The translations under genes and the position numbers were made by a program. The notes beneath the pieces are model-generated. The model did not search any database, was not told where the DNA came from, and worked only from the letters and a program-made list of their open reading frames with translations. Source: a virus. Taken from it: a stretch of 24,202 nt of DNA. Of this stretch, positions 1 to 24,202 are shown in pieces. The stretch lies in the IMG/VR virus record IMGVR_UViG_3300031758_005209, positions 1-24,202 of that record, one strand, 5' to 3'. Each line of letters starts with the position of its first letter. The first letter of the stretch is position 1.

Positions 1-332
1 GCTTCGTATAATTTGTATTTTAATATGCCTGTATTTTCTGCAATATGAAATATTCTACCAGTGGCATTGTATGCATACCCCTCTAAGGCGACCATATCAG
101 AACCAACACACACTCGCATTACCCAATCAGATATGGAATCATATCGCTCACACTCTTCGTCATATGGTCGAAACAATTCTCCATAAATATTATTTAAGAA
201 TAGAGTTGCATATTTTTTGGTATCTGTGAGAAAGTAAAAGTTGCAATTTTTGAAAGAAAAGTCACCTTTTTCTGTATCAAATACACAGATGGCGGGTCCA
301 TTTAAAGAATAATCAATCCCAGAAATTATCAT
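1..332 (-). CDS. RuvC-like Holliday-junction resolvase, partial (3' end outside window)
   Basis: About 110 N-terminal residues are visible, read from an ATG at 332. The protein opens with MIISGIDYSLNGPA, a beta strand ending in the first catalytic Asp of the RNase H/RuvC fold. About 85 residues in comes VALEGYAYNATGRIFHIAEN, which matches the second acidic position and following helix of phage RuvC-like resolvases. Such enzymes cut branched DNA during recombination and packaging. The gene runs off the left edge, so the last catalytic Asp residues cannot be checked. It diverges from the gene at 368. There is no Shine-Dalgarno sequence before the ATG, and a weak promoter (TTGTCT at 361-366, TATTTA at 338-343) would put the transcript start at the ATG. 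The fold is fairly secure; the exact substrate is inferred. Confidence 0.7.
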   Translation of the reverse strand, partial: MIISGIDYSLNGPAICVFDTEKGDFSFKNCNFYFLTDTKKYATLFLNNIYGELFRPYDEECERYDSISDWVMRVCVGSDMVALEGYAYNATGRIFHIAENTGILKYKLYE

Positions 333-335
333 TGA

Positions 336-343
336 TATAAATA
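336..343 (+). promoter_or_regulatory. T4-type late promoter (TATAAATA)
   Basis: This is an exact TATAAATA box, the sequence read by the T4 gp55 late sigma factor. It lies 24 nt before the ATG at 368, leaving room for a short leader with the ribosome site AGGGAGA. It fits late expression of the first plus-strand gene. Confidence 0.6.
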
Positions 344-367
344 TATATACCAAATCAGGGAGACAAT

Positions 368-1201
368 ATGAACGGATACAAACCAAACTATTTCAATAAA
401 AATTTATTAGAATCAATGAAAGATTCATTGAAAAATGTTGTTCTAGGAGAAGGTTACGGGGAACCCAATTTAGGAATAATGGGTGCGCCAGGAGATTTTA
501 GTAAAGTTTCTGATCTTCAACTTCAAAATAGAATGAGACAATATAAAAGAGGGGGTCTTTTTGCTCCAAAAGACATAAAACAACCAAAGGAATACGAAGA
601 GGCAAGAGCAGAATTAGAAAGAAGACAGGCTGCTAAAGCAGCACCAAGTGATGTTGCAGTTCCTGGATTACGGGGTGGATTGCCACAAATGGCAGATGCT
701 GATATTCCAGGAATGGTTGATCAAAAAACTGGTGCTGGTTTTAATGTTCGTATGGACCAATTACCATCAGAAAATCAAGCAGAAATAATGCAACAAACGA
801 CTACAGGTCCACAAGCAAAAAGAACTGGAGCTGCATTTAGTGTAAGACCAGAAAGACTTCCATATCAAGCAAAAGAAGAGGTGCTTTCTGCTTCTAGAAC
901 TCCAGCTGCTCTTCGCCAAGCAGATGCATCAATTGCTAGAGCAATCGAATCTGGTATTAATCCAAATACACCAGGAGTTATACCAGTCAGATCGGCAGGA
1001 AGTGCTCCTGCTCCAATGCCAGGAACTCAGGGAAATAATCCAAAACCAACTCCAATTCCAGTAAATCCAGCTGCATTGCCTTCGGATACCAGAGCAGAGT
1101 TACTAAGACAAACAGACACTCCTGCTGCAAGAAGAAGAGGAACAAATCTTCCTCCAAGACAAACAATGAATCCTGGATTTAGTCCAATTGGTGAGTTTTA
1201 A
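368..1201 (+). CDS. Hypothetical Pro/Ala/Gln-rich repeat protein, possibly virion-associated
   Basis: The 277-residue protein has a good ribosome site (AGGGAGA, 4 nt before ATG) and no family I recognise. It has no membrane segment or signal peptide. An imperfect module occurs twice in the middle, with TGAGFNVRMDQLPSENQAEI near residue 120 and TGAAFSVRPERLPYQAKEEV about 35 residues later. A shorter third copy near the C terminus reads LPSDTRAELLRQTDTPAARR. The N-terminal 90 residues are more charged and helical; the rest is proline-rich and probably extended. It sits alone between a late promoter and a strong terminator, which suggests a structural or packaged late protein. Function is unknown. 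Confidence 0.75.
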   Translation: MNGYKPNYFNKNLLESMKDSLKNVVLGEGYGEPNLGIMGAPGDFSKVSDLQLQNRMRQYKRGGLFAPKDIKQPKEYEEARAELERRQAAKAAPSDVAVPGLRGGLPQMADADIPGMVDQKTGAGFNVRMDQLPSENQAEIMQQTTTGPQAKRTGAAFSVRPERLPYQAKEEVLSASRTPAALRQADASIARAIESGINPNTPGVIPVRSAGSAPAPMPGTQGNNPKPTPIPVNPAALPSDTRAELLRQTDTPAARRRGTNLPPRQTMNPGFSPIGEF

Positions 1202-1274: not shown

Positions 1275-2261
1275 ATGCCAAATAAATTAATTCCTGAATA
1301 TGTAGAACAATATAAGAGACAATTAGTTGAAGATAGAACATTATCTTCATGGGCAAGAAAAAATTATCCTGCATTTGGAGCAGCTGCAGGTACACTAGTG
1401 GGTGGACCCATGGGTGGTGCTGCTGGATATGGACTTGGAAAAGTTATGCAATCTGACGCAGCAAAAACCGCTATTGGTGGAGGACTAGGCGGGATAGGTG
1501 GAACTGACGCAGCAAAAACCGCTATTGGTGGAGCAGTGGGTGGAGCTCCCACATCAAAAGCAGCAGGAACTGCGGTAGGAACTGCGGTAGGAACTGCCGT
1601 TGGTGGACCTGTAGGTGGAGTTGTTGGTGGTCTTGCAGGAGGATCCTTATCAGATTTCTCAATAGAAGATATAAAAAGAGGAATTTCAAAAGTTTTTGGT
1701 GGTACAAAGAAACCATCAGGAAGAATGGGATCTGTTGCAAGATTTGTTGAACGAACTCCAAGTGCTGCTACTCAATATGGAAGAAGAATGCAATATGGCA
1801 TAGGAATGGAAGAACCAAGATCACAATACGATCTGGACAGAATAGCAATGGCAGATAAAGACATTGCCGCTGCGGAAGCAGAAGCAGGAGGCAATCTTGG
1901 ATATCAGTCAAGAGCACAACAATTAGCAGGAAGAGTTCAAAGAGGATATAGCGGAACTCTTGGTGCTAATCTACAAAGAGATGAAAAGCATGGAGAATTT
2001 GCAGGAAAACTTTTCACTCCAGTTGGTGCATTTGAAAGAGAACTTGCAAAATCAAAGGCAAATACAGCACAAATGAGAAGAGAGATGGAAACTGGAGTTT
2101 CAGATAAATTATCAGATTTAGAAATTGTTAGAGGCAGTGGACAATTTGGAAGTCCAGAAGAAACTAGACAAGCAAGACTAAATGCCTCTAGTAGATTGAT
2201 GGACAAGATCAAGCGAGAAGCAGAAGAGAAAAAGAAAAAAGAAATTCAAGCAGGAATGTAA
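1275..2261 (+). CDS. Glycine-zipper protein of unknown function
   Basis: The 328-residue protein starts 8 nt after a GGAG ribosome site. Residues about 33-125 are a long Gly/Ala-rich stretch with many GxxxG and GGxxGG steps, typical of glycine zippers that pack helices in or against membranes. The DNA here has internal direct repeats. The rest (about 130-328) is charged, helical and rich in Arg, Glu and Lys, ending in a run of Glu/Lys. There is no signal peptide. With its own late promoter and next to another late gene, an internal virion or DNA-ejection protein is one possibility and a membrane-active protein another; neither is shown. Confidence 0.75.
   Translation: MPNKLIPEYVEQYKRQLVEDRTLSSWARKNYPAFGAAAGTLVGGPMGGAAGYGLGKVMQSDAAKTAIGGGLGGIGGTDAAKTAIGGAVGGAPTSKAAGTAVGTAVGTAVGGPVGGVVGGLAGGSLSDFSIEDIKRGISKVFGGTKKPSGRMGSVARFVERTPSAATQYGRRMQYGIGMEEPRSQYDLDRIAMADKDIAAAEAEAGGNLGYQSRAQQLAGRVQRGYSGTLGANLQRDEKHGEFAGKLFTPVGAFERELAKSKANTAQMRREMETGVSDKLSDLEIVRGSGQFGSPEETRQARLNASSRLMDKIKREAEEKKKKEIQAGM
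1453..1532 (+). repeat. 29-bp perfect direct repeat, 51-bp spacing
   Basis: The same 29 bp (starting CTGACGCAGC) occurs at 1453-1481 and 1504-1532. The 51-bp period equals 17 codons and duplicates the unit DAAKTAIGG in the glycine zipper. The copies are identical, so the duplication looks recent. Confidence 0.9.
1566..1601 (+). repeat. Tandem 12-bp repeat, three copies
   Basis: GGAACTGCGGTA occurs twice in tandem (1566-1589), followed by a diverged third copy (1590-1601). It encodes GTAV repeats, so copy number can change without breaking the frame. Confidence 0.85.
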
Positions 2262-2264
2262 AGA

Positions 2265-2290
2265 AAACAACCCCCGAAAGGGGGTTGTTT
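2265..2290. terminator. Bidirectional terminator between convergent genes
   Basis: An 11-bp perfect stem with a GAAA loop has an A-rich flank on one side and a T-rich flank on the other, so it can work on both strands. It lies between the plus-strand gene ending at 2261 and the minus-strand gene ending at 2300. Confidence 0.85.
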
Positions 2291-2299
2291 CTTATTAAC

Positions 2300-3379
2300 T
2301 TATTTTTGCAATATTTGTTTACAGAAATCCAACAAGAAATTACTGTAAATAGTTTTTACCTTTTCTTTCATTTCAGGTGAAGTCCAATATTTATCGGATT
2401 CTGCTGGTTCACCCTTTCCATTCAAAAATTGTTTATTGAAATGATTTCTGCACAATATTTGTTCTTCTCTTCTAGCCAGATTTGATCTATCTGCCAGTGG
2501 ACTTGTAACAATGTAAACTCTCCAGCTTCCACCAAACCAAATTATAAACCCATCACCACCATTAACTAAAAATGGATATATTGTATCTTTAAGCAATTCA
2601 TCAAAAGGGATTGTTTCAAATCCTTTTACTTTAGAATTTGCTCCATTTATATCTGCTACAAATTCTTTAAATAAGATTGGGCTTATCCAAGCTAATTTTT
2701 CTTTTTCATTTGCTGAATCAAATCTATTAAGTAGTTCAATTGATATCTTTGTTTTAGTTGGATCTATTTTATCAAGATTTGATGCATCTTTATCAGCAAC
2801 ATCATGTTGATACAATACAGCAGAAACCATATCAGAAGCCTCTGCTACATCTTTATAACTTTCGTATAAAGCTTCTTTGAATTCTTGTAATTGTTTTTCA
2901 CTTGCATCATATACTCTTATTTGTTTTGTGCAAGTTTCGTGGCTGATAATATCTCCACCGTCTACACACATCCATATAGGAAGATTTGGTGTTCCATAAT
3001 ATCCCCATCTTTTATCTGGATATTGTTTCTTTAAATGATTTATTGCATCTACCATGTTTTTAGAAACATTTTCATGATTTACTACAGTTCCATTTGGATG
3101 TTTCTTATTGTATTCATTACCAGTCATTAAAACCCAAGTATGGGGTTCTTCAAAATCTAAAAATACAGTTTTAGCAGTAGCAAATGGTGCTCCACCGTCA
3201 ACATATCCTGGTTGATCTACAAAATTCATAATTTGTTTAACATCAACAGTTCCATCTGTTGATTCGCGATCATTTACATCAAATTGGTAAAGAATAGAAT
3301 ATTGTTCAACTCCCAACTCTTCAAATTTTGGAAGAAAACTTGGATCTGGAATATCGTCTATGTATAGTTTTATTTTCAT
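2300..3379 (-). CDS. Putative TIM-barrel glycoside-hydrolase-like protein
   Basis: The 359-residue protein begins with a beta strand (MKIKLYIDDI) and shows alternating strands and helices. TVFLDFEEPHTW near residue 90 carries acidic residues at a strand end, the usual place for catalytic acids in TIM-barrel hydrolases. It is followed by RWGYYGTPNLP and, near residue 280, GGDGFIIWFGGSW, an aromatic-rich closing strand like those of sugar-cleaving barrels. There is no signal peptide. The gene lies 9 nt downstream of the beta-helix gene; its ribosome site AAGGA overlaps that gene's TAA. Being last in a late unit with a spike-like gene suggests a polysaccharide- or wall-acting partner. I cannot name the family, and the catalytic assignment is inference. 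Confidence 0.5.
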   Translation of the reverse strand: MKIKLYIDDIPDPSFLPKFEELGVEQYSILYQFDVNDRESTDGTVDVKQIMNFVDQPGYVDGGAPFATAKTVFLDFEEPHTWVLMTGNEYNKKHPNGTVVNHENVSKNMVDAINHLKKQYPDKRWGYYGTPNLPIWMCVDGGDIISHETCTKQIRVYDASEKQLQEFKEALYESYKDVAEASDMVSAVLYQHDVADKDASNLDKIDPTKTKISIELLNRFDSANEKEKLAWISPILFKEFVADINGANSKVKGFETIPFDELLKDTIYPFLVNGGDGFIIWFGGSWRVYIVTSPLADRSNLARREEQILCRNHFNKQFLNGKGEPAESDKYWTSPEMKEKVKTIYSNFLLDFCKQILQK

Positions 3380-3388
3380 ATTTTTTCC

Positions 3389-5110
3389 TTATGAGCATCC
3401 TGATGTTGTTACATTTAATTGCCTTACATTAGGTTCAATTAAATATGGCTGATTTCTCTCTGAATTTCCATAGTCTACCATTCCAGCAACACACACATTT
3501 TTTATAAACACATTTTTTATATTTAAAGATTTATCAGCATCAGTTGCATGTCTTTTCCATCTAATTGGCTGATCTTTAAATTTTATATTTTCCATAAGTA
3601 AATGATTTGCATCAATCATCCACCACGATCCAGCAACAGAATTTCTATCTTGTGATACATCCCAATTAACAAAAGCTGTATTATCATATTGCTGTGTTCC
3701 AGTTGTGGCACTACAATTCATCTGGAAACCTTGCATCCAGAAATTTCTTGCAGTTATATTAAAAAAGATGTTATTTTCTCTTCTAATAGGACTTCCAGCA
3801 TTAGCGAAGAAATGTACCAAATCTGCATGGTCATCACCTATTCTAACATATTCATCTATAAATGCATTTATATGTAATCCAGTGTTAGCAAGAGGGGTAT
3901 CTCCAGGTCTTATTAATTTAGAGTTTATAGAAATATTAGCACTTCTCATTGTGCCTCTTGTATTATACATTTCACAATTTATATAATAAGCTCCAGCGAA
4001 ACCAGAACTGAATTCGCTCCCATATACAGGGTCTTTTAAATTTCCGTTATCATCATATGCTTCATAAGTGGCATAACAATTTTGTACCGATATTATTGAA
4101 TCTAAATTTCCACTTCTTATTTGTGTTGATGTAGTTATATCATTATTATAAAAAGTTATATTTTTTACTTCTACTAATTTAGTTCCATAATTACCAACTC
4201 CAATCAATTTTACTTGCTCTCTAGTTAAGTTTGGTGCTGGTTGTATTGTTATAAAACGACTAATAGTTGTTGGATTTGGATAAGAATACGATCCAACCCC
4301 ATTTTGATGATTGCCTTCCATTAAATATATTTTAGCACCATCACATATTCCATTTTGTAGTGTTCTAACTTGTCTTAGTGCTTTACCTATGGATTGATAT
4401 GGTGATGTTTCTGATCCATTTCCTGTAGAATCATTACCATTTGGTGAAACATACATTACAATATTTGGAAGAGTTCCTTTAGAATTTAAATTTAAAAATA
4501 AAGAATGATTTCCATCTTTATATTTTAGATAATTCACTCCACCAACTCTAATATCAGATAATGATCCTTGAAGAACTCTTGGCATACCTATGTTTGGATA
4601 TACAATCGCTCTTACTTCAATTAAACCATCTTGAGTGTCAAATGGATTTACAGAAATAAAATATTCCTCCACATTATTTGAGGAATTTAATTTTGGTTGA
4701 TAAACGGATTTCCATGCTCCACCATTTACAGAAAAATCAACCTTTTGTATACCACAGATATGAAAAGCAACTACACCTATTGTAAAATCAGTATTATATT
4801 CTGTAAATGGAACATTTGTCCATCTTGCAATAGCTTGGGCATCATATCCCCATTCACCTGGAGAACCGTTATTATTTGGTTGTGGCGTATTTTCTAAAAA
4901 ACCATTGCCTATATCAGTTCTTTCTTCTTGCCCTAGAAATATAGCTAAATCAGCAGCATTGACTGTACCGTCTCCATTTAAATCATATTGTGGATTATTA
5001 GAATCCCATGAATTTAAAAGTTCAGCCAATTTTTCAGCATCAGATTGTTCATTATTTGGTAAATTTGCCATTCCAATCAACATCGCAAAGAGAAGTATAA
5101 ACTTCTTCAA
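3389..5110 (-). CDS. Secreted or tailspike-like beta-helix protein with dockerin-like motif
   Basis: This 573-residue protein starts at TTG (5110), chosen because GGAG lies 6 nt upstream and the signal-like segment MKKFILLFAMLIGMANL follows directly. Residues about 24-60 hold a dockerin/EF-hand-type loop, YDLNGDGTVNAADLAIFLGQ, preceded by a degenerate half-repeat. Residues about 85-180 form a beta-sandwich-like region with VDFSVNGGAWKSV. From about 215, YVSPNGNDSTGNGSETSPYQ opens a right-handed beta-helix of the DUF1565/pectate-lyase type that runs to the end. Beta-helices like this bind or cut polysaccharide in tailspikes. A signal peptide and a dockerin-like module are unusual for a spike and suggest export or anchoring. 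It has a late promoter and lies upstream of a possible hydrolase. Enzyme activity is unproven. Confidence 0.7.
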   Translation of the reverse strand: MKKFILLFAMLIGMANLPNNEQSDAEKLAELLNSWDSNNPQYDLNGDGTVNAADLAIFLGQEERTDIGNGFLENTPQPNNNGSPGEWGYDAQAIARWTNVPFTEYNTDFTIGVVAFHICGIQKVDFSVNGGAWKSVYQPKLNSSNNVEEYFISVNPFDTQDGLIEVRAIVYPNIGMPRVLQGSLSDIRVGGVNYLKYKDGNHSLFLNLNSKGTLPNIVMYVSPNGNDSTGNGSETSPYQSIGKALRQVRTLQNGICDGAKIYLMEGNHQNGVGSYSYPNPTTISRFITIQPAPNLTREQVKLIGVGNYGTKLVEVKNITFYNNDITTSTQIRSGNLDSIISVQNCYATYEAYDDNGNLKDPVYGSEFSSGFAGAYYINCEMYNTRGTMRSANISINSKLIRPGDTPLANTGLHINAFIDEYVRIGDDHADLVHFFANAGSPIRRENNIFFNITARNFWMQGFQMNCSATTGTQQYDNTAFVNWDVSQDRNSVAGSWWMIDANHLLMENIKFKDQPIRWKRHATDADKSLNIKNVFIKNVCVAGMVDYGNSERNQPYLIEPNVRQLNVTTSGCS

Positions 5111-5127
5111 TGAGATCTCCTTTTCAA

Positions 5128-5135
5128 TATTTATA
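5128..5135 (-). promoter_or_regulatory. T4-type late promoter (TATAAATA)
   Basis: This exact TATAAATA on the minus strand lies 17 nt before the TTG start at 5110, with GGAGATCT between. It overlaps the tail of the RNR terminator, so early and late units switch at this point. Confidence 0.6.
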
Positions 5136-5164
5136 AAGAAACAACCCCCGCTTCCAGGGGTTGT
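5133..5164 (-). terminator. Terminator after the ribonucleotide reductase gene
   Basis: On the minus strand ACAACCCC pairs with GGGGTTGT across an 8-nt loop (5141-5164), followed by TTCTTT. It lies 34 nt after the RNR stop and ends the replication unit that begins at the polymerase C-terminal half. Confidence 0.75.
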
Positions 5165-5197
5165 CGGACCTGAGATGCTATCTCAAGTGGGGTTATA

Positions 5198-7114
5198 TTA
5201 TGTAGTCAGATCTACAAGTTCGCATTTGTCGCCACTACATGCGAATGTCTGAGTTCCAACAGTCTTGTCTTCTTTCTCATAATTTCTTAGCAAAGTCCAA
5301 TCAACATTTTTTGGCATTTGTTGAAGTGCCTTTTCATATTCTTCCTTAGAACAATCTTGATATGGTGCTTGACGATATGAGTGATCAGAATGAGGTAGGA
5401 ATGAAATGCCTGAGATTTCATCAAAGTGTTTGTATACAAATGCTCCGACTTCCATCCATTCATGTTCCTTTACAGTGACAGTAATTGATGGTTTATGTTC
5501 GCACCAATAACGCTGATAAGTCAACCACAATTCTAGATGTTCGATTGCTGTAAGATCATTTCGTGTTACTGAACCTTCTGCCTTCATTGGGAAAGAAAAA
5601 ACCATGGTGTGGTCTGGTTTCATAACACAAGGTTCCGCAGGGAATCCCATATCAATCATCATTTGACAAAGAGGATCTTTACGATCTGCACGAACTGTGC
5701 GAATGTAGTATTCATTGTGACGAGCATGAATACCAGATGCAGCATCTGTCAATTGAGATACGGTGCCACTTGGTTTAATACAGGTGATTGCTGCTGCTGG
5801 ATTGATTCCAATGATACTCGCCCACTCTTTATTAACTTCAACTGACAATTCTTTTAGATTTGTAAGAGTATTTGGAATATCCTGTGTGCTTCTCATCATC
5901 TTGTTATCAAGAATTCCAGTTAACGAAACACCCAATAGTGCTTCTTCAGTGCAATTCTTCTTCCACTCGGATGAGAGATATGGAAAATGAGTCAATGATG
6001 CTTGCCATGTTCCTAGAATTGTAGCAAGTCTTACCTTACGACGAAGAGATTCTAAAGTATCATCCGGTCGAACTACAACTTCTGTAAGATTGCAAAATTG
6101 ACGGTCGCGTAGAATAATTTCACTACAAGGATTTGTACCAAACTCATAAGATGCATCACGACGATCACCAAGTTTAGATACAGTTCTTCTACAAGCATCG
6201 CGGTTGAAAATACCACGCTCTCCACTCTTTGACTTGTAGAGTGAAACCCATTCGTCCATGAATACGCCTATTTCTGGTTTTTCCTTGTACGCGACCGAGT
6301 TGTTCGCGAGCGCGCGCTGTGGGTTTTCGTTCCACCATGCTCCAGACTTGGCATCTCGCATTCTTTCATCTGTGAGATTGGATAGGCTAATAAGAGCAGA
6401 TCTACGGACTCCTCCCACCACGACAATTTCTGCAATCTTACAGACAATATCGTGGCACTCAATTGATGTAAGCTTTCTCCCTGCCGCTCTCTTAAAAGTA
6501 TCAATGGTGAATTTGAAAAGATCTTCGAGAGGTCTTGGTCCGCTTGCTCTCCCACCGAAAGTCTTGAGGCGAGCCCCAGCAGGACGAACTTTTGACAAAT
6601 CCCACTTTGGAACCTGACCTCCAATAAGTAGGGACACAAGTTCTTTGTAAGCCTTAGCCCAACCAGCTTTGCTATCTTCAACAATGATCGTGGTGTCGCT
6701 AGGACTAAAGTTTTCAGCGATTGTAGGAAGTTTTTCAACATATTGTCTCTCCACAGAGAATCCTACACCCGTTCCACACATGAGAATGTATAGGATTTCA
6801 TCAAATGCTCTTACGCGGTTAATTGCAACATAAGAGCAATTATATCCTGCTGTATTATCTCTCTTCAATGCATCCCCGGCCGTCATGAGTGATCGCATGG
6901 AAGGCATAATCTCTAGATTCAAAACTGCATCTTTCAATTCCTGACGCAATTCTGGTTGCAAACTATAATTCAATTGTGTTAGATGTTCATCGAAGAATTT
7001 AAAATAACGCTCCACGGTTTCTTCCCATGTCTCACGACGCTTTTCTTTCTCAATCCAGCGAGCGTATCTGGATGTGTGTATAAATTTTTGATAATCAGAT
7101 GGTAAATCTTTCAT
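5198..7114 (-). CDS. nrdJ: Adenosylcobalamin-dependent (class II) ribonucleotide reductase
   Basis: The enzyme reduces ribonucleotides to deoxyribonucleotides for phage DNA synthesis in the cytoplasm. The 638-residue protein has the family landmarks. AGYNCSYVAI carries Cys93, the first redox cysteine. MCGTGVGFS follows near residue 112. EFGTNPCSEIIL carries the radical Cys330 flanked by Asn328 and Glu332. RQFCNLTE has Cys341, partner of Cys93. KPSGTVSQLT is the phosphate-binding loop, and the tail has Cys626 and Cys631 in FACSGDKC for thioredoxin-type re-reduction. It lacks class I subunit features, and no small subunit lies nearby, which fits the monomeric B12 type common in phages. It is shorter than the roughly 740-residue Lactobacillus enzyme. 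The start has AAAGGAG 5 nt upstream. It is last in the unit, after thyX. A copy of its active-site segment occurs at 16128-16183. Confidence 0.93.
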   Translation of the reverse strand: MKDLPSDYQKFIHTSRYARWIEKEKRRETWEETVERYFKFFDEHLTQLNYSLQPELRQELKDAVLNLEIMPSMRSLMTAGDALKRDNTAGYNCSYVAINRVRAFDEILYILMCGTGVGFSVERQYVEKLPTIAENFSPSDTTIIVEDSKAGWAKAYKELVSLLIGGQVPKWDLSKVRPAGARLKTFGGRASGPRPLEDLFKFTIDTFKRAAGRKLTSIECHDIVCKIAEIVVVGGVRRSALISLSNLTDERMRDAKSGAWWNENPQRALANNSVAYKEKPEIGVFMDEWVSLYKSKSGERGIFNRDACRRTVSKLGDRRDASYEFGTNPCSEIILRDRQFCNLTEVVVRPDDTLESLRRKVRLATILGTWQASLTHFPYLSSEWKKNCTEEALLGVSLTGILDNKMMRSTQDIPNTLTNLKELSVEVNKEWASIIGINPAAAITCIKPSGTVSQLTDAASGIHARHNEYYIRTVRADRKDPLCQMMIDMGFPAEPCVMKPDHTMVFSFPMKAEGSVTRNDLTAIEHLELWLTYQRYWCEHKPSITVTVKEHEWMEVGAFVYKHFDEISGISFLPHSDHSYRQAPYQDCSKEEYEKALQQMPKNVDWTLLRNYEKEDKTVGTQTFACSGDKCELVDLTT

Positions 7115-7834: not shown

Positions 7835-8346
7835 TTAAACTCCTTCAAAAAATCACTAGTATCACCAAGATTCTTCTTTATTTGTTCAATTGCAAATTCA
7901 ATAAACTTTGGATCATCTTTGATGTGCTTGCAAATATTTACAAAGTTGCTCCAATCCGTTGTATCAAAATTTTCATATGACAAACTGCGGGCATGATGAA
8001 TAAAATTTGCAAGATAATTCTTCATTCCAAGAAGATCATCCTTTTGAGTCTTCTTCTTTTTCATCCAAATTTCTTTTGCTTCATCCTCATTTCCAACCTT
8101 GTTAACTAGACGATTAAAACTAGACTCAGTCTTAACAAGAGTCCTGAGAAGTTCATCTAAGAACTTTTTATTATCTTCATGCCAATAGTCGAAAACAATT
8201 CCATTGTCATTCTTTGCATATGTCTTGGCATAATCAACTGCTCTGTAAAACAGATCACGATCTGTTTCGCGAATATATTCACTAAACTTAAAATGAAATT
8301 CTACCATGCTGGTAAGAAGTAAAAAATCTTTTTCTGAAATCTTCAT
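7831..8346 (-). CDS. Hypothetical helical protein in replication operon
   Basis: I do not recognise this 171-residue protein. The start at 8346 (MKISEKDFLLL) is chosen because its ATG overlaps the primase stop as ATGA and GGAG lies 9 nt upstream; a longer frame begins five codons earlier. The sequence is mostly charged alpha helix, with Lys-rich KKKKTQKDD in the middle, one conserved-looking aromatic stretch (FDYWHED) and no membrane segment, zinc site or nucleotide-binding loop. It is coupled to primase upstream and ThyX downstream, which suggests a small accessory protein of replication or nucleotide metabolism. That is inference from context only. Confidence 0.75.
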   Translation of the reverse strand: MKISEKDFLLLTSMVEFHFKFSEYIRETDRDLFYRAVDYAKTYAKNDNGIVFDYWHEDNKKFLDELLRTLVKTESSFNRLVNKVGNEDEAKEIWMKKKKTQKDDLLGMKNYLANFIHHARSLSYENFDTTDWSNFVNICKHIKDDPKFIEFAIEQIKKNLGDTSDFLKEFK

Positions 8347-9338
8347 TGGCATTTTCTCCATGAATTAAATGCTAAAAGTGCAGAAGCATTTTGATGTGTG
8401 TTATTACCTATTATAACAAGTGGATCCAGATCATTCAATACCATATCATTTATATCCTTTTCTTTTATATGATCTGGATAAATGCATATTTTTTCGCCGC
8501 GGTCGATGAGTTCTCTATAAATTTTCACTATCTCTTTATTTCTTGGTTCATTGTCCAATACGAAAATCAAATCTTGAGTTGGAAATGTCTTTCTAATTTC
8601 TAAAAAATTTCCTGAACCAAGACAAGCAATTGTATTGGGTAGGAAGAGACTGTCGATTGGACCCTCCACAACAAAGATACGCTTGCTCAAATTAATAGTG
8701 TTCAGTCCATATATCAGTCTTGTTTTTTCATTTCTTTTCAGAGTTATATACTTTGGTTTTATATTTTCCAAAGTTCTACCCTGAGCACCTACAAGTTGAT
8801 TATGCTCATCGTAAATTGGAATTATTATTCTTTCGTCTTCAATTAAAGAATAATCTGAATTTATATTTTTTGCATATGTACCAAATGTTTTGGTGTATTT
8901 AAATTTATCCCAGTGCTGCTTTGGTATTTTTCTAGACTGTAGAAAATGAATTGCCTTATGTGTCTCTTCTAGATCAGAAATAAATTCTGACGAATCAACA
9001 ATCATACTAGTGATATTTTGTTTTTCTTCTACCACTATAGATTCATATTTTGGTCTTTCATTTTTCTCCATGAACTTCTCAAGAGAGTATTGTTTGAAAA
9101 GAACAGGAGAAACTATTTCCAAAAATTTGTAGATGTTGTGTGATGCACCACAATTATGACATTTGAAAAAGTAAGTATTTTCTGATTGGAAAAAATAACC
9201 TCTCGCTTTATTTTTGTTTACTTCAGAATCTCCACAAATTGGACATCTACAATTTGCAAGATTAATCTTCTTCCATTTGAATTTTTGAAGCGAAGAAGAA
9301 ACCAGATTAATATACTTTTGATCAAGATAAAGACTCAT
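8343..9338 (-). CDS. DNA primase, DnaG/T4 gp61-like
   Basis: It synthesises RNA primers for the lagging strand together with the helicase encoded just upstream. The 331-residue length fits T4 gp61 (about 340). The N terminus has a zinc ribbon with CPIC (Cys32, Cys35) and CHNC (Cys60, Cys63). The middle has the TOPRIM signs FVVEGPIDSLFL (catalytic Glu) and IFVLDNEPRN (acidic metal site). The start at 9338 is preferred over an in-frame ATG at 9350 because it overlaps the helicase stop as TGATG. The downstream stop overlaps the next ATG. Order uvsX, helicase, primase agrees with a T4-like replisome set. Confidence 0.9.
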   Translation of the reverse strand: MSLYLDQKYINLVSSSLQKFKWKKINLANCRCPICGDSEVNKNKARGYFFQSENTYFFKCHNCGASHNIYKFLEIVSPVLFKQYSLEKFMEKNERPKYESIVVEEKQNITSMIVDSSEFISDLEETHKAIHFLQSRKIPKQHWDKFKYTKTFGTYAKNINSDYSLIEDERIIIPIYDEHNQLVGAQGRTLENIKPKYITLKRNEKTRLIYGLNTINLSKRIFVVEGPIDSLFLPNTIACLGSGNFLEIRKTFPTQDLIFVLDNEPRNKEIVKIYRELIDRGEKICIYPDHIKEKDINDMVLNDLDPLVIIGNNTHQNASALLAFNSWRKCQ

Positions 9339-10708
9339 CAGAAATTCCAATTTTCAAACTTAGAGTTTTTATTTTCCTTTGGTTGTTGCTTTGGTTGCGA
9401 AGCGGGAATCAAAAGCGCATCATCTTTCTTGATATCAAACACTTTCATCTTCGCACGATTAATTCCAAGAATAAACTTTCTATTCACTGCGGTATCGTTA
9501 TATCTATTCTTGAGTTGCTTTACCATGATTTGATTCATCTCTGCTAATTCTTCGGTAGAGATTAATGCAAACATGAAATCAGCAGTAGCAGGAAGACCAA
9601 ACGACTCAGATGTGTCTTCCAATCCCACATCAGAGTTTGAATATCCGGATCTTGTAGTTTGTGTTGCACTGAAAATTGGTACATTATATTCAACCGCTAG
9701 TCCACGAAGTTCTTCAGCAATAGACTTAATGTAAGTATAACTGTTTATGTTATTTCCATTCTTCAAACGAGCAGATGCACAGATATTCAAATAATCGATG
9801 AAGATAACATCTGGTTTAAACTTTCTCTTTAACCAAAGTTCGTCAAGCAGGAATCTAAAGTGATTTACATTTGCTGTTGCAGTAGGATATTCTTTAATGA
9901 TAAGTTTTCCAGTTACACCAGCACTCAGATTTTGCATTCTCTTTTCATAAACTGTCTTTGGAAGTTCCTTCAGGTTATCAAGAGTGATGTCCAATAGATT
10001 TGCATCTATTCTTTCAGCAATTCTTTCTTCTGCCATCTCACAAGTAATATACAAAACATTTGAATTCTGTTTCAGACAATTCGCGGCATGGTGGCAAAGA
10101 AATAGTGACTTACCAACACCAGTTCCTGCCATGACGATATTGAGTGTCTTAGCAGGAGTTCCACCATTTGTGATTTGATTAAAGAAGTCCAAGTCAAATG
10201 GAACTTTCTTTTCAACTGTATGATAAAATTCGTAACGCTGTTCATAATCTTCAATGTAATCATGTCCGATATGTACATCAAAGGAAACAGCAAGTGCTTT
10301 TGATAAAATATCAGGGATTGCTCCTTGACTATTTTGAGATTTTCCATCAATGATGGAAATAGATTCCATAATTGCATTATAAACTGCCTTTTCTTTGCAG
10401 AATGTTTCTGTCTCTGCAAATAACCATTCCATATCACACGATTCCTTATTGTTTGAAATTTCCTCAACAATATTGGAAACGCGCTTTAGTTCATCCTGTG
10501 TGATTGATTTGTTCTTATCAAGAATAATATACAGTGCCTCTTTTGTAGGCAAGTTATTATACTTCAAGATAAAATCATGAATGCTCTCAAAAACAAATCT
10601 TACAGACCTGTCATGAAAATACTCCCTCTTTAGGAAGGGAGTAACTTTTCGTGAGTATGGTTCATTTTTGAGAAGACTGTGTAGTATTAGTTTTTCAATA
10701 TCCGTCAT
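9338..10708 (-). CDS. Replicative DNA helicase, DnaB/T4 gp41-like
   Basis: This is a hexameric 5'-3' helicase that unwinds the fork and recruits primase. Of its 456 residues, about 1-110 are the helical DnaB N-terminal domain. From about residue 175 comes the RecA-like motor, with Walker A AGTGVGKS (194-201), Walker [11 protein letters not shown], a sensor stretch [13 protein letters not shown] and a C-terminal block [15 protein letters not shown]. The protein ends in a flexible Gln/Lys/Asn-rich tail ([12 protein letters not shown]). Length is close to T4 gp41 (475). Its ATG overlaps the uvsX stop as ATGA. No intein or intron is visible. Confidence 0.93.
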
Positions 10709-11758: not shown

Positions 11759-12874
11759 TTACCCAAATAGGGATTCTAATGTATTTTTCTTTTCAGTAGA
11801 CCATCCTATAGTATCTAGGATTGTAGTCAATGGATCTATAAAAGATTTTTCAAATTGCATTTTGTAATCAATAAATTCATGCAATCCAAATTCTTTTGGT
11901 AAAATATTTGGAAAAGAAATAATTTGATCTTCACCACGAATACCACCAAGTGGATTTGGTTTCTTCAAATGAAGATACTTGATCTTATCTCCTTCAATTA
12001 TTTTTTTGTACTTTTTATTAATTTTATATTTTTCGATATAGTGGTTGTAAATCAAAGAACCTTTTACAGCAATTGGTGTCGATTTCTTATAGATTGTAGC
12101 ACGATCAGCATACTTATCCATACCATTTACACTACGAGGAAATGCAATTTCTTCTGGACTTAACGAAAAGAATTGCTTTTTACATTTTTCAACAAAAGTA
12201 ACCATATCACTCTCATTGCCATTCATTGTAATATGAATGGCGTCCTTGAGATATTTTCTAATACATTCTGGTGTTGAACTACGAGTAGTTTCAATTCCCA
12301 TAATCTTAAGTTTTGGTTCTGCATATCGAACACCTTCAGAGTCCCAAACATTAAGCATGTATCTTTTCTTTGCAGTCCAAATTCCCTTGTCTGCAATAAC
12401 TTCTCGACCCATCTGCATCTTATTTTCGTAAGCATTCATAATTGAGGCAAGTTCTTTGAACTTTTTGTCTATGAATGGCAATATTGCATCAATAGAAGAC
12501 TTATCAATAAAATTTACAATCTTGGTTTTATCGCTTGTATTTGGCATTACCTTTTGCACAAGCGGTCCAAGATTCAAATAAACAGAATCTGTATCAGATG
12601 CGATCACATAATCGATATCTTTAGTTCCGACAATCTTGTTTAAATAATTATTTAGTTCCTGACCAATCCACTGAATAGACAACTGACCCGACAGAGTGAT
12701 TGCCTCTGCGAGTTCAGTTGAATAATATCTAAAATATTCGTTTCCAATTGCCCCGTAAGCAGAATTCAATTGAATTTTGCGAACCAATTGAAAGTTGTGG
12801 TATTTGGAAATTTCTAATTCATATTGTTTACGGAGAGATAGCAATTCTTCCGTAGATAATTTTGAATAATTCAT
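11759..12874 (-). CDS. Family B DNA polymerase, C-terminal half (split gene)
   Basis: This 371-residue protein is the second half of a T4 gp43-like polymerase. It starts with a short helix ([16 protein letters not shown]), then motif [14 protein letters not shown] (fingers, dNTP binding) and motif [10 protein letters not shown] (Asp94 and Asp96, catalytic metals). The thumb follows, with [13 protein letters not shown] and [15 protein letters not shown]. The end TLESLFG resembles the clamp-binding tail of gp43. It has no exonuclease domain or motif A; these are encoded at 19205-20686. The ATG lacks a Shine-Dalgarno sequence but lies 7 nt after a good -10 box, suggesting a leaderless mRNA. Together the halves total 864 residues, near the 898 of T4 gp43, so little is lost. 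It heads the unit with uvsX. Confidence 0.92.
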
Positions 12875-14369: not shown

Positions 14370-14662
14370 ACCACTATCCATCCCTTCTCTTTGGTCAGGT
14401 ACTTGAACAGTTCTCTTCCTACTGGGCGACTCATCGTTCTGAACTCACCTCTCCTCAATGTGATCTGTGGAAACTTCATCACATATTCATCATCTCCGTA
14501 TCCTGGGATGATTGTGACTCCAACCATATCGGTATCAACAGCATCAGACCAACAGAAATGGACTTCGTCAAGGGATGGGAGATGTCTCACAACACACGAC
14601 TTTTCCCAATTCAATTCCAACGGAGATGTATCTGGAATGTATGGATCACCATAGCGTTTCAT
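14366..14662 (-). CDS. Hypothetical small protein
   Basis: The 98-residue protein has GGGAG 7 nt before its ATG and overlaps genes on both sides. It starts MKRYGDPYIPDTSPLELNW and contains VHFCWSDAVDTDMVGVTIIP, a mixed beta-strand region, and a basic stretch (LRRGEFRTMSRPVGRELFK). It ends EKGWIVV. There is no membrane segment. I do not recognise the family. Confidence 0.65.
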   Translation of the reverse strand: MKRYGDPYIPDTSPLELNWEKSCVVRHLPSLDEVHFCWSDAVDTDMVGVTIIPGYGDDEYVMKFPQITLRRGEFRTMSRPVGRELFKYLTKEKGWIVV

Positions 14663-15176
14663 TCTTGTTCTCCCTCAGTTGCCTATTCTCTTCCCGAAGT
14701 CGCTCAATGGTTTTGAGATCTTCCTCTGAACTAGCCTTTAGGAACTCCTTGAAGTCCTTGACCGATTGTGGAAATCCTTCTCCCGAATAATTCTTGTAGC
14801 AATCCCAACCACGGGAGATGGCATAGTCACCCGCAAGGAACCCCGTCAGGTGGTGGAAACCACAGACCTCACGCCGTGCTTCGTCCCGTTCCTTCTCAAG
14901 TTCACGGCACTTCTGCGCTAGCAGATTGTTCTCATACCTTGCATTCTCAAGTTCCTCCGTCAGTCTAAATCTCTCCGACATGGCAGAGTATGGCTCCCTG
15001 CCACGGAGTCGGTCTAGGTTTTCTCCTGCGAGTAGATCGGGGTCTTCTTCAGTCATCGGCGTGTCTCCTGTGTTGGTTGTGGTGATTACTTTGACCTGTG
15101 GTGGGTGGTTGGGAGCCGTATACGGCGGGATGTATTGCCACAGTTCCTCAATGCGCTTATCGGTGGGGTCGGGCAT
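14646..15176 (-). CDS. Coiled-coil protein with internal GWDCYK motif
   Basis: The 176-residue protein starts at 15176 (MPDPTDKRIEELW), fixed by TAATG overlap with the small hydrophobic frame and GGAG 8 nt upstream. The middle is a coiled coil (LTEELENARYENNLLAQKCR, then ELEKERDEARREVC). After HLTGFLAGDYAI comes SRGWDCYKNYS, the motif shared with three neighbours. Unlike them it continues with a second helical part (FKEFLKASSEEDLKTIERLR). A sigma70-type promoter lies about 75 bp upstream. It is one of a set of related small proteins (15276-15512, 16049-16381, 16378-16614). Function is unknown; the coiled coil suggests self-association or partner binding. Confidence 0.75.
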   Translation of the reverse strand: MPDPTDKRIEELWQYIPPYTAPNHPPQVKVITTTNTGDTPMTEEDPDLLAGENLDRLRGREPYSAMSERFRLTEELENARYENNLLAQKCRELEKERDEARREVCGFHHLTGFLAGDYAISRGWDCYKNYSGEGFPQSVKDFKEFLKASSEEDLKTIERLREENRQLRENKNETLW

Positions 15177-15283
15177 TAGATTCTCTCCAAAATGATGATT
15201 CCCCATAAAAGGATGTTTGCTATTAGTAGATACAGAAGTAGAGCCTCTATAGTATACGCAAGATTGTCATCCTTGTCAATCAT
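15176..15283 (-). CDS. Small single-span membrane protein (35 aa)
   Basis: The short frame reads MIDKDDNLAYTIEALLLYLL and continues with a hydrophobic run to ILERI. This gives an acidic N terminus, about 20 hydrophobic residues and a charged end, the plan of a one-pass membrane peptide. AAGGAAAA lies upstream of its ATG, its start overlaps the upstream stop, and its stop overlaps the next ATG as TAATG, all as in real neighbours. Against it, a strong promoter sits inside the frame, so part of the coding signal may be accidental. Confidence 0.5.
   Translation of the reverse strand: MIDKDDNLAYTIEALLLYLLIANILLWGIIILERI
15251..15279 (-). promoter_or_regulatory. Sigma70-type promoter
   Basis: TTGACA (15274-15279), a 17-bp spacer and TATACT (15251-15256) match the bacterial consensus closely. 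Transcription would start near 15244 and carry the coiled-coil gene at 15176 and the genes below it. Confidence 0.7.
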
Positions 15284-15512
15284 TGTTGTTTTCCTTGAAG
15301 CAGTCCCAGCCGCGTCGGGTGGCATGGTCTTGTGCGGTTCCGTTCTTGGGGTCTTCCATTATCTGTAGCATCTTGCGAACAGAAAGCATACGAAGTTGCA
15401 AAACCTCCATCTGATCCTTAATGGCATCCATCTCAGTAGAGAGTTCCCAAACAAAGTCAGAAATCTTAGTGATTGTCTCGGTATCAGTCTTGATGGTTTT
15501 ATTTTTAGTCAT
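15276..15512 (-). CDS. Small coiled-coil protein with C-terminal GWDCFK tail
   Basis: The 78-residue protein starts at 15512 (MTKNKTIKTDTE), with AAGGAG 8 nt upstream and overlap with the previous stop. A Thr/Lys-rich N terminus is followed by a helix with heptad-like spacing (FVWELSTEMDAIKDQMEVLQ). The end, DHATRRGWDCFKENNND, is the tail shared with neighbours. The codons for FKEN also form the ribosome site of the next frame. Function is unknown. Confidence 0.7.
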   Translation of the reverse strand: MTKNKTIKTDTETITKISDFVWELSTEMDAIKDQMEVLQLRMLSVRKMLQIMEDPKNGTAQDHATRRGWDCFKENNND

Positions 15513-16002
15513 TGGTGTTCTCCTTGACAATCGTGGAAGCGGTATTCAGCAACTCCAACTCTGCCGTCACAGCAGCGTTCAACTCGGCAGAAGTGTAGAT
15601 GGCATCAATCCAATCATCTTGCTGCCCGATGTTCATTCCTGCATCGGCATTCATCTTTGCCCAACGAACAGCGTCAACGCTGACATGGTTGCTGAACGAG
15701 ATGTTGGGAACGGACGAATCGTTGCCCTGACCAAAGATGTCGCCATCGTTGGTTCCGATGCTGTTCTGCGTGTGAGAGAAGGTGTTGGTGTTGGGATTGT
15801 ACGCAAAGGTTGCAATCACCTTTGCCGTGATCGTCCAGTTCCAAAACTTGATGCCCGTGACGGTGATGGTCTTGTCAATGCTCATGTTCTTCCTATCGTT
15901 GTTGGTGTTGGTGATGGTGCGAGAGGGGCGGGTAGATGAGGCGGTAATGATCTCATCGGAATGAACGGTGATGTTCTTGGTCTTGGTTGCAGTCTTAGGC
16001 AT
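15505..16002 (-). CDS. Hypothetical protein, DUF2793/phage-structure-like, with its own promoter
   Basis: The 165-residue protein starts at 16002 (MPKTATKTKN), with AAGGAG 7 nt upstream; an upstream extension in the same frame runs into the preceding gene and has no ribosome site. Residues 1-45 are Thr/Ser/Asn-rich and probably disordered. The rest has strands (ITVTGIKFWNWTITAKVIAT) and an Asn/Asp/Gly-rich region, then a C-terminal helix (AELNAAVTAELELL). An inner ATG (MSIDKTITV) is an alternative start. A near-perfect sigma70 promoter lies 22 bp upstream. I cannot name the family with confidence; the DUF label is only a weak resemblance. Confidence 0.65.
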   Translation of the reverse strand: MPKTATKTKNITVHSDEIITASSTRPSRTITNTNNDRKNMSIDKTITVTGIKFWNWTITAKVIATFAYNPNTNTFSHTQNSIGTNDGDIFGQGNDSSVPNISFSNHVSVDAVRWAKMNADAGMNIGQQDDWIDAIYTSAELNAAVTAELELLNTASTIVKENTND

Positions 16003-16023
16003 TGTCAATCTCCTTGTTGTTAT

Positions 16024-16052
16024 AGTATAGTACAGTCTATGGGTGTTGTCAA
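16024..16052 (-). promoter_or_regulatory. Strong sigma70-type promoter
   Basis: Perfect TTGACA (16047-16052), a 17-bp spacer and TATACT (16024-16029). The -35 includes the TGA stop of the upstream gene. The predicted start near 16017 gives a leader of about 15 nt with AAGGAG before the ATG at 16002. It is the most consensus-like promoter in the window. Confidence 0.8.
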
Positions 16053-16381
16053 GCGTTATCTTTGAAGCAGTCCCAGCCCTTTTGCTTTGCGATCTCTTTA
16101 GGCTCTCTTGCAAGAGGATAGTCTGGCAGAATAATCTCTGAACAGGGATTCGTACCAAATTTATTTGATGTATCACGACGATCCTCCTCAAGCACGATGA
16201 TCCGTGCTTCTAGATCGCAAGAATATCTCCTCGCCTCGTCGCGCTCGGCGGTGAGGATTGCGTTCTCCCGCTCCAGTTCACGGGCAAAATCTGCACGAAC
16301 AATGAACGCCGACCGCAGACCGTCCTCACTCCACCAGTTTGATTCTGCTGCGTCTGTGCGTGGTGTTTGGGTTTCGTTCAC
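16049..16381 (-). CDS. Chimeric small protein: coiled coil + RNR active-site segment + GWDCFK tail
   Basis: The 110-residue protein starts at GTG (16381), with AAGGAG 8 nt upstream and GTGA overlap with the upstream stop. Residues about 30-63 are a coiled coil (ARELERENAILTAERDEARR). Residues 67-85 read DRRDTSNKFGTNPCSEIIL, identical at 16 of 19 positions to residues 317-335 of the ribonucleotide reductase in this window, including the radical-site Asn-x-Cys-x-Glu. The end is EIAKQKGWDCFKDNA, the shared tail. The RNR part cannot form an enzyme by itself. It may be a recombination relic, a decoy or a partner-binding piece. Without it the protein would match its neighbours. Confidence 0.75.
   Translation of the reverse strand: MNETQTPRTDAAESNWWSEDGLRSAFIVRADFARELERENAILTAERDEARRYSCDLEARIIVLEEDRRDTSNKFGTNPCSEIILPDYPLAREPKEIAKQKGWDCFKDNA
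16128..16183 (-). repeat. Diverged copy of RNR active-site DNA (matches 6111-6166)
   Basis: By eye, 45 of 56 aligned bases match nrdJ at 6111-6166 with no gap, including a 12-bp perfect block at the 5' coding end. The reading frame is preserved. Both copies are on the minus strand. The level of difference suggests descent from a related but different RNR gene, or an old duplication. Confidence 0.85.
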
Positions 16382-16614
16382 TTGCTTTTCTCCTTGTAGC
16401 AATCCCAAACACCCGTATCAAAGCAGTCCCAGCCGTTTCTCTTTGCTACATCCTGCGGTGGCTCCTTGAAGTGGTTGCCCACCCAATCACAAACCTCGCA
16501 GCGTAACTCATCACGCTCCTTGATTAGCCGCTCAATCACTTCTGCGATCTCATCGGCACAGTTGATGCTGTGAGACAGTCTCTTGATCCTTGCGATGGCA
16601 TCGTGTTCGTTCAC
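16378..16614 (-). CDS. Small coiled-coil protein with doubled GWDCF/VWDCYK tail
   Basis: The 78-residue protein starts at GTG (16614), with GGAGG 7 nt upstream and GTGA overlap with the previous stop. After MNEHDAIARIKRLSHSINCA comes a helix, IAEVIERLIKERDELRCEVC, close to the EKERDEARREVC of the 14646-15176 protein. The tail is duplicated: DVAKRNGWDCFD then TGVWDCYKEKSK. The last codons provide the ribosome site of the chimeric gene. CEVC could be part of a metal site, but no second pair is clear. Function is unknown. Confidence 0.7.
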   Translation of the reverse strand: MNEHDAIARIKRLSHSINCADEIAEVIERLIKERDELRCEVCDWVGNHFKEPPQDVAKRNGWDCFDTGVWDCYKEKSK

Positions 16615-16832
16615 TTGGTTTCCTCCTTGTACATGTCGTGAAGCACATCCATCACGACGAGATCATCAAGGTCAGTCCAAAAACAGGTGTCGGCAAGTTC
16701 GTTGCGGAACTTTCCCACCTTGCTGTTTGGAGAGATTTCAAGCAGCGTCCATTCGCTGCGTTTGATTCTTGTGATCCTGTCAGTCAGCAGTAGCCGCTTG
16801 TCTTTTAGTTCTTTCCATTTGTATTCAATCAT
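16611..16832 (-). CDS. Hypothetical small helical protein
   Basis: The 73-residue protein starts MIEYKWKELKDKRLLLTDRI, a basic N-terminal helix, and continues RSEWTLLEISPNSKVGKFRN with an acidic end (DLDDLVVMDVLHDMYKEETK). GGAGG lies 7 nt before the ATG, which overlaps the upstream stop. It lacks the GWDC tail; its EETK ending coincides with the next gene's ribosome site. I do not recognise the family. Confidence 0.65.
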   Translation of the reverse strand: MIEYKWKELKDKRLLLTDRITRIKRSEWTLLEISPNSKVGKFRNELADTCFWTDLDDLVVMDVLHDMYKEETK

Positions 16833-16996
16833 TTGGTTTCCTCCTCGTCCTGAAAATCATCGGGGTAGCACATCACTAGTGCGTCAGTCCAGTTCTCGCA
16901 CACCATGCATGTAGCGATTTCGGGGCAGTAAATGAAGTCGCACACATGCTTCGGGTGCGTGGCATCGGGAGCCATGTTGTCGCGCCACGATGTCAT
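16829..16996 (-). CDS. Cysteine-rich 55-residue protein, possible zinc-binding
   Basis: The frame runs from an ATG at 16996, 2 nt after the upstream stop (TAATAATG), to a TGA overlapping the next ATG. It contains five cysteines: HVCDFIYCPEIATCMVCENW, then LVMCYPDD. The first four suggest a small zinc ribbon. The C terminus is acidic (DDFQDEEETK). A competing frame in the same DNA begins at 17010 (MDYNND, 41 residues to 16884) with a better-spaced AAGGAG. I prefer the 55-residue frame because it is coupled at both ends. Confidence 0.55.
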   Translation of the reverse strand: MTSWRDNMAPDATHPKHVCDFIYCPEIATCMVCENWTDALVMCYPDDFQDEEETK

Positions 16997-16998
16997 TA

Positions 16999-17178
16999 TT
17001 ATAGTCCATTGGTGTTCTCCTTGGAAAGTGCAGAGTAGAGAACGCTTTCACAGAACTTGCGAAACTCTTCTTGGTGAGAGGAGATGTCCTTGTGCTTGTT
17101 CTGTTCGTGCCACATATCGGTGAGAACATTGGTGAGAGCAAGGGCAACGATGGTTGTGGTTGGTGTTGGTTCACTCAT
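16999..17178 (-). CDS. Hypothetical small helical protein
   Basis: The 59-residue protein starts at 17178 (MSEPTPTTTIVALALTNVL), with GGAGG 8 nt upstream and ATG overlapping the previous stop; an ATG two codons earlier is possible. A helix with mild hydrophobic character is followed by a charged His/Lys/Glu stretch (WHEQNKHKDISSHQEEF) and ALSKENTNGL. Its end shares 17 nt with the junction at 15510-15526. The family is unknown. Confidence 0.6.
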   Translation of the reverse strand: MSEPTPTTTIVALALTNVLTDMWHEQNKHKDISSHQEEFRKFCESVLYSALSKENTNGL

Positions 17179-17668
17179 ATTCATTTCCTCCGTAAATGCG
17201 GTTCACATCAATGATATCCCGCCCGTAGTAATCATTCTCTCCCATCACGGGTTCGCCTTTCCAATCTTCGGCAACCATTGCAATCCCGTATTCCTTGAAG
17301 GTGATGTATTCAATGACTGTTTCGTAGATCGGTTCATATATTTCTCCACCCATCCAATCGTATCCTACTGGAACTTCTCCATATAGGACTCGTCGTTGGT
17401 GTCTATGGCTCCATTGCCGTGCCACCGTCTTTGGAGTGTATCGAACGATCTTCGGCTGAGTCAGCATAGTATCATTCGGAGTGGAATGCCACAGGTTGGA
17501 CATCGGTTCCATGACAAGCATCTCACGCTTCTGCGGATCATACGGTTCTCGCTTTCCATTCCAAGGACCGCCGTGGTAGACCACCGTGTGTGGCTGTTCG
17601 CAGGAGTTCTTGTCGAGAATATCATTGATGACTTTATCATCACGATATGTGTTAGCGTAGATGCTCAT
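17171..17668 (-). CDS. Hypothetical protein immediately after a tRNA
   Basis: The 165-residue protein starts at 17668 (MSIYANTYRDD); a longer frame would run into the tRNA. It has a mixed fold with VVYHGGPWNGKREPYDP, HSTPNDTMLTQPKIVRYTP and a repeated Tyr/Glu-rich stretch (YDWMGGEIYEPIYETVIEYI). The first 50 residues suggest a small beta domain. There is no signal peptide or catalytic motif I can name. Its ATG lies only 2 nt past the tRNA discriminator base and has no clear ribosome site, so 3' processing of the tRNA may make its mRNA nearly leaderless. Confidence 0.65.
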   Translation of the reverse strand: MSIYANTYRDDKVINDILDKNSCEQPHTVVYHGGPWNGKREPYDPQKREMLVMEPMSNLWHSTPNDTMLTQPKIVRYTPKTVARQWSHRHQRRVLYGEVPVGYDWMGGEIYEPIYETVIEYITFKEYGIAMVAEDWKGEPVMGENDYYGRDIIDVNRIYGGNEYE

Positions 17669-18565: not shown

Positions 18566-18571
18566 GAAAAC

Positions 18572-22915: not shown

Positions 22916-24202
<1,287 letters not shown>

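Follow-up and report, generated by a model that had tools for sequence, protein, structure and literature searches.

We give a probability of roughly 0.5 to the reading that the beta-helix protein described here is a late, exported, polysaccharide-active protein acting at or near the host surface, rather than simply a virion tailspike. The gene is found in a window of 24,202 nucleotides (the whole stretch of viral DNA that was analysed), and its product carries, in order, a signal-peptide-like segment, a single EF-hand module, an Ig-like domain and a right-handed beta-helix. These features, together with the fold class, their conservation, the genomic slot of the gene and the company that it keeps, are direct observations. 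Phage polysaccharide enzymes are usually pictured as virion spikes. An earlier note on this DNA had already argued against a plain tailspike, and that view is strengthened by the signal peptides of divergent relatives and by the fact that related phages encode further exported proteins with dockerins in the corresponding slot.

Results

The beta-helix gene runs on the minus strand from 5110 down to 3389 (573 aa), so that the extent given earlier was correct, and it appears in the ORF list with a TTG start preceded by a Shine-Dalgarno site (AAGGAG, 5117-5122, minus strand, 6 nt before the TTG). Five relatives, L003 to L007, are 94%, 73%, 72%, 49% and 48% identical to the window protein, respectively, and the closest of them retains both the TTG and the AAGGAG. 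The DNA of the window and that of L003 are nearly identical downstream of the TTG and diverge just upstream, and this break in conservation supports the TTG as the start. A longer ORF in L003 was rejected as an artefact of choosing the first possible start, its ATG lying inside a terminator hairpin. The loci of the relatives were gathered by homology, and rates among them are accordingly not rates in phages generally. Twelve duplicate loci of contigs already included were left out of the family, slot and motif counts (the slot survey was also made without the window row), while the window and L002, which are the same phage, and the near-identical L006 and L008 were kept in them.

The signal-peptide-like segment comprises residues 1-15 (5066-5110, minus strand), with a predicted cut after GMA. 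It was assigned with a hand-made test requiring n-, h- and c-regions and small residues at -3 and -1, and by the homologous position of the signal peptides in L006 and L007. The window N terminus, MKKFILLFAMLIGMA with N as the next residue, passes this test, as do 156 of 20,000 whole-protein shuffles. Among the 180 closed ORFs of at least 400 aa in the gathered loci, nine pass, all of them members of the beta-helix family (six distinct proteins once near-identical copies are merged): one each in the window and L002, two each in L006 and L008, two in L007 and one in L058. Counted by phage, a signal-peptide-like N terminus is present in the window, L003, L006, L007 and L008, and L006, L007 and L058 each carry one on their second beta-helix gene as well. 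The signal peptides of L006 (MKIIIFLVAILAMVQNLRA, then D; 49% identity) and L007 (MRNLLALFLSFVMTNTAYA, then Q; 48%) are well formed and sit just ahead of the same EF-hand module, although their letters differ. The export-like N terminus proposed earlier is thereby upheld for the window, but it is not family-wide: in the alignment of six sequences the signal peptide is missing from the orthologues of L004 and L005, and the upstream paralogues in those two phages lack it as well. The L004 and L005 proteins begin with MSNSEELAKLLNAW or MSNSEELSKLLNAW, at about the mature N terminus of the exported forms. As orthologues and paralogues alike do without it there, export is not essential to the role of the family, and the signal peptide appears from the alignment to be a detachable element, present in some members and absent from others. 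No other fact speaks as strongly for export in some phages, and none as strongly against export being essential.

The EF-hand module that follows (residues 24-59; 4934-5041, minus strand) was delimited by profile matches, alignment and an AlphaFold2 model, in which helices at residues 24-33 and 52-58 flank a 12-residue calcium-type loop, DLNGDGTVNAAD (residues 43-54; 4949-4984, minus strand; the earlier note had quoted residues 42-61). Acidic residues or Asn occupy loop positions 1, 3, 5 and 12 in the alignment, and the loop is kept in all six aligned sequences including that of the window, down to 48% identity. The pattern arises in 8 of 20,000 shuffles of the window protein; across the gathered loci it matches 24 times in 804 gene ORFs, as against 0.1 per shuffled set, and once in 1,528 non-gene ORFs. 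Given the shuffle control and its survival in relatives at 48-73% identity, the loop is by all sequence indications not a product of chance. Both dockerin profiles match below their cut-offs: Pfam Dockerin_1 (PF00404) covers residues 36-57 only, or profile positions 30-51 of 57, with 18.9 bits against a gathering threshold of 22.9 (E=0.0018), and NCBIfam dockerin_GC (NF041540) covers residues 20-60 with 20.2 bits against 29 (E=5.9e-4). A type I dockerin is expected to have two loops, each with its helix, whereas the window protein has one. The module is thus a single EF-hand, corresponding to one half of the classical type I dockerin with its two loops. The term dockerin used earlier therefore stands insofar as there is a calcium-type loop here and complete dockerins in related phages, and fails insofar as the window protein itself has a single half-module below cut-off. 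Separately, the Ig-like part of the L005 paralogue at 1828-3534 is interrupted by some 40 additional residues, among them an EF-hand loop, that are missing from the L004 paralogue at 8260-9921; this pair of sequences gives the impression of a mobile loop module.

The Ig-like beta-sandwich (residues 93-172; 4595-4834, minus strand) was recognised from the strands in the model and from weak matches to Big_7, which occur in three of six family members (best E 0.046; 12.4 bits for the window protein against a cut-off of 24.1). Its ARWxxVP module is common to neighbouring paralogues in the relatives. The beta-helix itself (residues 213-573; 3392-4474, minus strand), which the earlier note had also recognised, is borne out by the AlphaFold2 model, whose confidence is modest (nine sequences, mean pLDDT 61), and by structural comparison of these residues with VIA-align, where polysaccharide enzymes and tailspikes are nearest at Z 17-20. 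The best match, over residues 216-569 (Z 20.1, rmsd 3.8, 286 aligned), is the glycoside hydrolase BT_1002, followed by the AlgE4 epimerase (19.6), the RbmB lyase (19.1), the Sf6 tailspike (19.0) and PL6 lyases (18-19), rows within 1 Z being counted as tied. Foldseek gave the Agl-KA catalytic domain as best PDB match (E=1.8e-5) and a Bacillus phage tail fibre protein as best viral match (E=5.3e-7), and PHROG tail protein 4577 matches residues 216-269 (E=1.5e-5). On the strength of this model, the fold alone would not separate an enzyme from a tailspike. Sequence profile searches of the window protein reached no carbohydrate-enzyme family (polysaccharide lyase or glycoside hydrolase), the sole profile match being DUF1565, in two of six family members (best E 3.3e-4), and comparison with cultured phages gave one weak match, to a Staphylococcus phage tail fibre (26.5%, E=0.5). 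The residues H428-x-D430 are invariant in the window protein and four paralogues at 21-24% identity, a degree of conservation that suggests a putative binding or catalytic site.

The gene opens an expression unit. The octamer TATAAATA (5128-5135, minus strand), which we take to be a T4-type late promoter box, lies 17 nt before the start codon, and each of the four copies in the window is followed, 16-24 nt downstream and on the matching strand, by the start of an ORF, even if their number is not rare by itself (1.66 expected; 9 of 100 shuffles reach 4). The late-type promoter suspected earlier is supported. The same box precedes L006:10001 and L039:10782; it takes the form TATACATA in L003 and is absent before the family gene in L004, L005 and L007. 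As terminator-like hairpins lie at 5140-5165 and at 2264-2291, both on the minus strand, the first ahead of the unit and the second closing it, the stretch from 5110 to 2300 reads as a two-gene unit. Its second gene (2300-3379, minus strand, 359 aa) had been put forward as a possible hydrolase and is a tentative candidate at most. The best match was to a GH56 structure, 2atm, with E=0.049 for the single sequence and 0.57 with a two-sequence profile; the AlphaFold2 model (pLDDT 38) was too poor for a fold search. By eye, the motifs DFE, WGYYGxP and NGGDGxIxW appear to be shared with GH56 and to occur in the same order. With a sequence match this weak and a model this poor, the assignment as a GH56 hydrolase was set aside. 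Besides the same phage in L002, the neighbour has a relative in L003 only (81%). Its N terminus has no signal peptide by inspection, and therefore the supposed pair need not act in one compartment.

The two-gene unit sits between a ribonucleotide reductase gene (5198-7114, minus strand; phrog_367, E=8.6e-187) and a gene which we take to be RuvC-like (3-386, minus strand; truncated where the window ends but complete in L002 at 14725-15333). The phage is T4-like, its helicase being closest to that of Methylophilales phage Melnitz (60.9%) and to those of cyanophages (57-59%). The slot between these two genes holds members of the beta-helix family in L004, L005, L006, L007, L008, L017 and L057. 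Chimeric assembly or host DNA was rejected as an explanation, given the recurrence of the same slot order in many contigs and the presence of T4 gp23 in 2 of the 20 contigs searched; the gp23 search gave no match in the other 18, none of which is at least 90% complete by CheckV. Elsewhere in the window, several small ORFs at 14646-16614 (minus strand) contain GWDC[FY], which in three of them (ends 15276, 16049 and 16378) lies at the C terminus or close to it, and one at 16049-16408 (minus strand) carries FGTNPCSEIIL, a sequence that also occurs in the ribonucleotide reductase. A DNA polymerase, by eye, is present in two pieces about 6 kb apart (11759-12874 and 19205-20686, both minus strand), between which lie an HNH-type ORF (17826-18599) and small genes, and a collagen-repeat protein is encoded at 22916-23914 (minus strand; PF01391, E=3.2e-13).

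Other host-style exported proteins occur in the related phages. The slot of L004 and L007 contains a 222-residue signal-peptide protein with the C-terminal tail APxPGAIALLGMAGLxGRRRR, in which a turn with Pro is followed by a hydrophobic stretch and RRRR, and which resembles PEP-CTERM (PF07589) with 11.2 bits in L004 against a cut-off of 20.7. This PEP-CTERM-like protein is found in 44 viral loci (L004:7533-8201, L007:6934-7602, L015:3137-3835 and 41 others among L017-L059), with a signal peptide by the hand-made test in 43, the exception (L057) being broken in two. Its gene directly follows the ribonucleotide reductase gene in 16 of the 44 and directly precedes ThyX in 9; in L027 it lies 10 bp before a terminase large subunit gene of podovirus type (phrog_38, E=2.3e-82). 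A search of cultured phages and PHROGs did not find the protein. Fifteen viral loci encode a small dockerin protein of about 253 aa (L019:9518-10279, L039:10782-11567, L056:11019-11780, L058:12810-13580 and 11 more), with two calcium loops in all 15 and a signal peptide in 14, the remaining one (L073) being cut by the contig end. Dockerin_1 is above cut-off in the four small dockerin proteins tested (L019, L039, L056 and L058), and the family profile matches solved dockerins at about 1e-6; by contig, PF00404 matches in 10 of 20 and exceeds its cut-off in 5 of 20. This protein, too, was not found in cultured phages. By eye, there is a likeness to a cohesin in its N-terminal part, but this candidate was dropped when alignment to one cohesin with hhalign gave a probability of 0.1, equal to that of shuffles, and Pfam gave no match. 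The 102 kb contig L056 further encodes a subtilase (15744-17195, minus strand) with a signal peptide and intact-looking catalytic motifs (PF00082, E=2.2e-41), the end of which is dockerin-like, with both profiles below cut-off (dockerin_GC, E=2.7e-4, 21.2 at best against 29; Dockerin_1, E=0.059), and T4 gp23 lies within 2 kb of it. A survey of open-licence PubMed Central papers found no description of dockerin or PEP-CTERM proteins that are encoded by phages and exported.

Discussion

From these observations we infer the export, calcium binding, glycan target, timing and benefit of the beta-helix protein. Judging by the T4-type late box, it would be expressed late, together with the virion and lysis genes, and the Sec system of the host would export it by way of its N-terminal signal peptide. 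Beyond the inner membrane, the N-terminal calcium EF-hand may hold the protein in the surface matrix of the host, possibly on a host cohesin, where the beta-helix, given its fold and the conserved H-x-D site, would bind or cut surface polysaccharide. The likely benefit would be the opening or stripping of the host coat, such that progeny could leave and avoid sticking to debris or to cells already infected. The protein would then be one of several host-style exported proteins carried in the cargo slot between the ribonucleotide reductase and RuvC-like genes. Counting for this are the signal peptides of divergent relatives, the loop in 6 of 6 sequences, the exported slot company, the late unit bounded by two terminators, the fold and H428-x-D430. 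Counting against it are the L004 and L005 proteins and their upstream paralogues without signal peptides; the paralogues that share their Ig-like N-terminal part and differ in the beta-helix, like virion receptor-binding proteins; the PHROG label of tail protein, the tie between tailspikes and enzymes, and the lack of an enzyme family by sequence; and the changed late box in L003, its absence in L004, L005 and L007, and the want of a bacterial relative.

The main competing explanation, a real if rather unlikely possibility, is a virion tailspike or side fibre. On this view the protein would be attached to the particle through its Ig-like domain and would bind or cleave the receptor glycan with its beta-helix; the EF-hand would serve as a spacer stabilised by calcium, and the hydrophobic character of the N terminus would be incidental. 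Such a protein would be expected to do without a signal peptide, as L004 and L005 do, and the tie of the beta-helix with the Sf6, HK620 and P22 tailspikes, the match to PHROG 4577, the late box and the tandem paralogues with a common N-terminal part before divergent beta-helices all agree with it. An incidental N terminus is nevertheless difficult to reconcile with signal peptides that keep their position in L006 and L007 while their letters change, and that recur, in L006, L007 and L058, on the second beta-helix gene; moreover, the gene keeps company with exported, non-virion-like proteins, with no demonstrated closeness to tail genes. The signal peptide would disappear altogether if the start codon were wrong and an inner ATG, at residue 10 or 14, were used. 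Both ATGs exist, L004 and L005 begin at the EF-hand module, and the TTG is itself a predicted start, yet we hold this to be very improbable indeed, given the correct spacing of the AAGGAG before the TTG and its retention in L003, the break in DNA conservation just ahead of that codon, and the ATG-started signal peptides of L006 and L007 at the same place.

It is also conceivable, if doubtful, that the protein is exported as a host-derived auxiliary, still sorted by host signals, which feeds or re-coats the host during infection through the use of extracellular polysaccharide or through a surface change that blocks superinfection. A late-type promoter and a lytic T4-like genome would leave little time for feeding, and no close bacterial relative was found; the dockerins, PEP-CTERM-like tails and signal peptides on several unrelated proteins are nonetheless what one would expect of such cargo, as is the recurrence of one PEP-CTERM-like protein in three different genomic settings. 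We retain the late, exported, polysaccharide-active protein as our reading.

The style of the sorting signals is the only lead to the host. Dockerins, PEP-CTERM-like tails and the resemblance to the GC-type dockerin are probably signals of planctomycete style, and by this analogy a planctomycete host would fit them. Two scans of genome contigs found no bacterial relative, and a tblastn search against plasmids gave nothing useful for the host. Freshwater Nemodlikiaceae (Phycisphaerae) have cohesin and dockerin modules, for which a cell-surface planctosome of proteases has been proposed, and dockerins of freshwater Phycisphaerae occur outside cellulose degradation, according to the part of that paper considered here (PMC6461901). 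The L056 subtilase with its dockerin-like end would, by analogy, fit this proposal well. It is a tentative and unlikely extension that phages of aquatic planctomycetes carry exported dockerin-tagged proteins (the beta-helix protein, the subtilase and the small dockerin protein) which plug into a cohesin scaffold on the host surface, the proposed planctosome; were it true, the phage would re-equip or sabotage a host surface machine from inside. More broadly, if a conserved cargo slot is indeed filled with proteins bearing signal peptides, dockerins and PEP-CTERM-like tails, some phages would be using host export and surface-sorting routes deliberately. For uncultured phages of T4 and podovirus type the slot also provides a testable host lead, the planctomycetes, and exported phage dockerins would offer a way to probe the role of dockerins in planctomycetes.

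Several known systems share parts of this arrangement. LysGH15, as presented in the part of its description considered here (PMC4022735), is likewise a phage protein with a calcium-binding EF-hand-like site, but it is a lysin, whereas the window encodes a beta-helix protein with a dockerin-like module. The planctosome, to the extent covered by the same portion of its source (PMC6461901), similarly involves exported proteins with signal peptides, dockerins and proteases; there the system is host-side and hypothetical, whereas here the genes belong to phages, with no cohesin recognised in them and a conjectural link to that host. Secreted bacterial dockerin beta-helix enzymes of the cellulosome type, with the fold of AlgE4, PL6 and BT_1002, share the signal peptide, the calcium loop and the Ig-like part, and differ in that the window gene belongs to a T4-type phage, has a half dockerin at the N terminus of its product and falls into no enzyme family by sequence. 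Finally, the tailspike depolymerases of Sf6, HK620 and P22 have in common with the window protein the beta-helix fold (Z 17-19), a phage genome and a late-type promoter; unlike them, the window protein shows no sign of a virion-binding head and instead carries a signal peptide and an EF-hand before its Ig-like domain.
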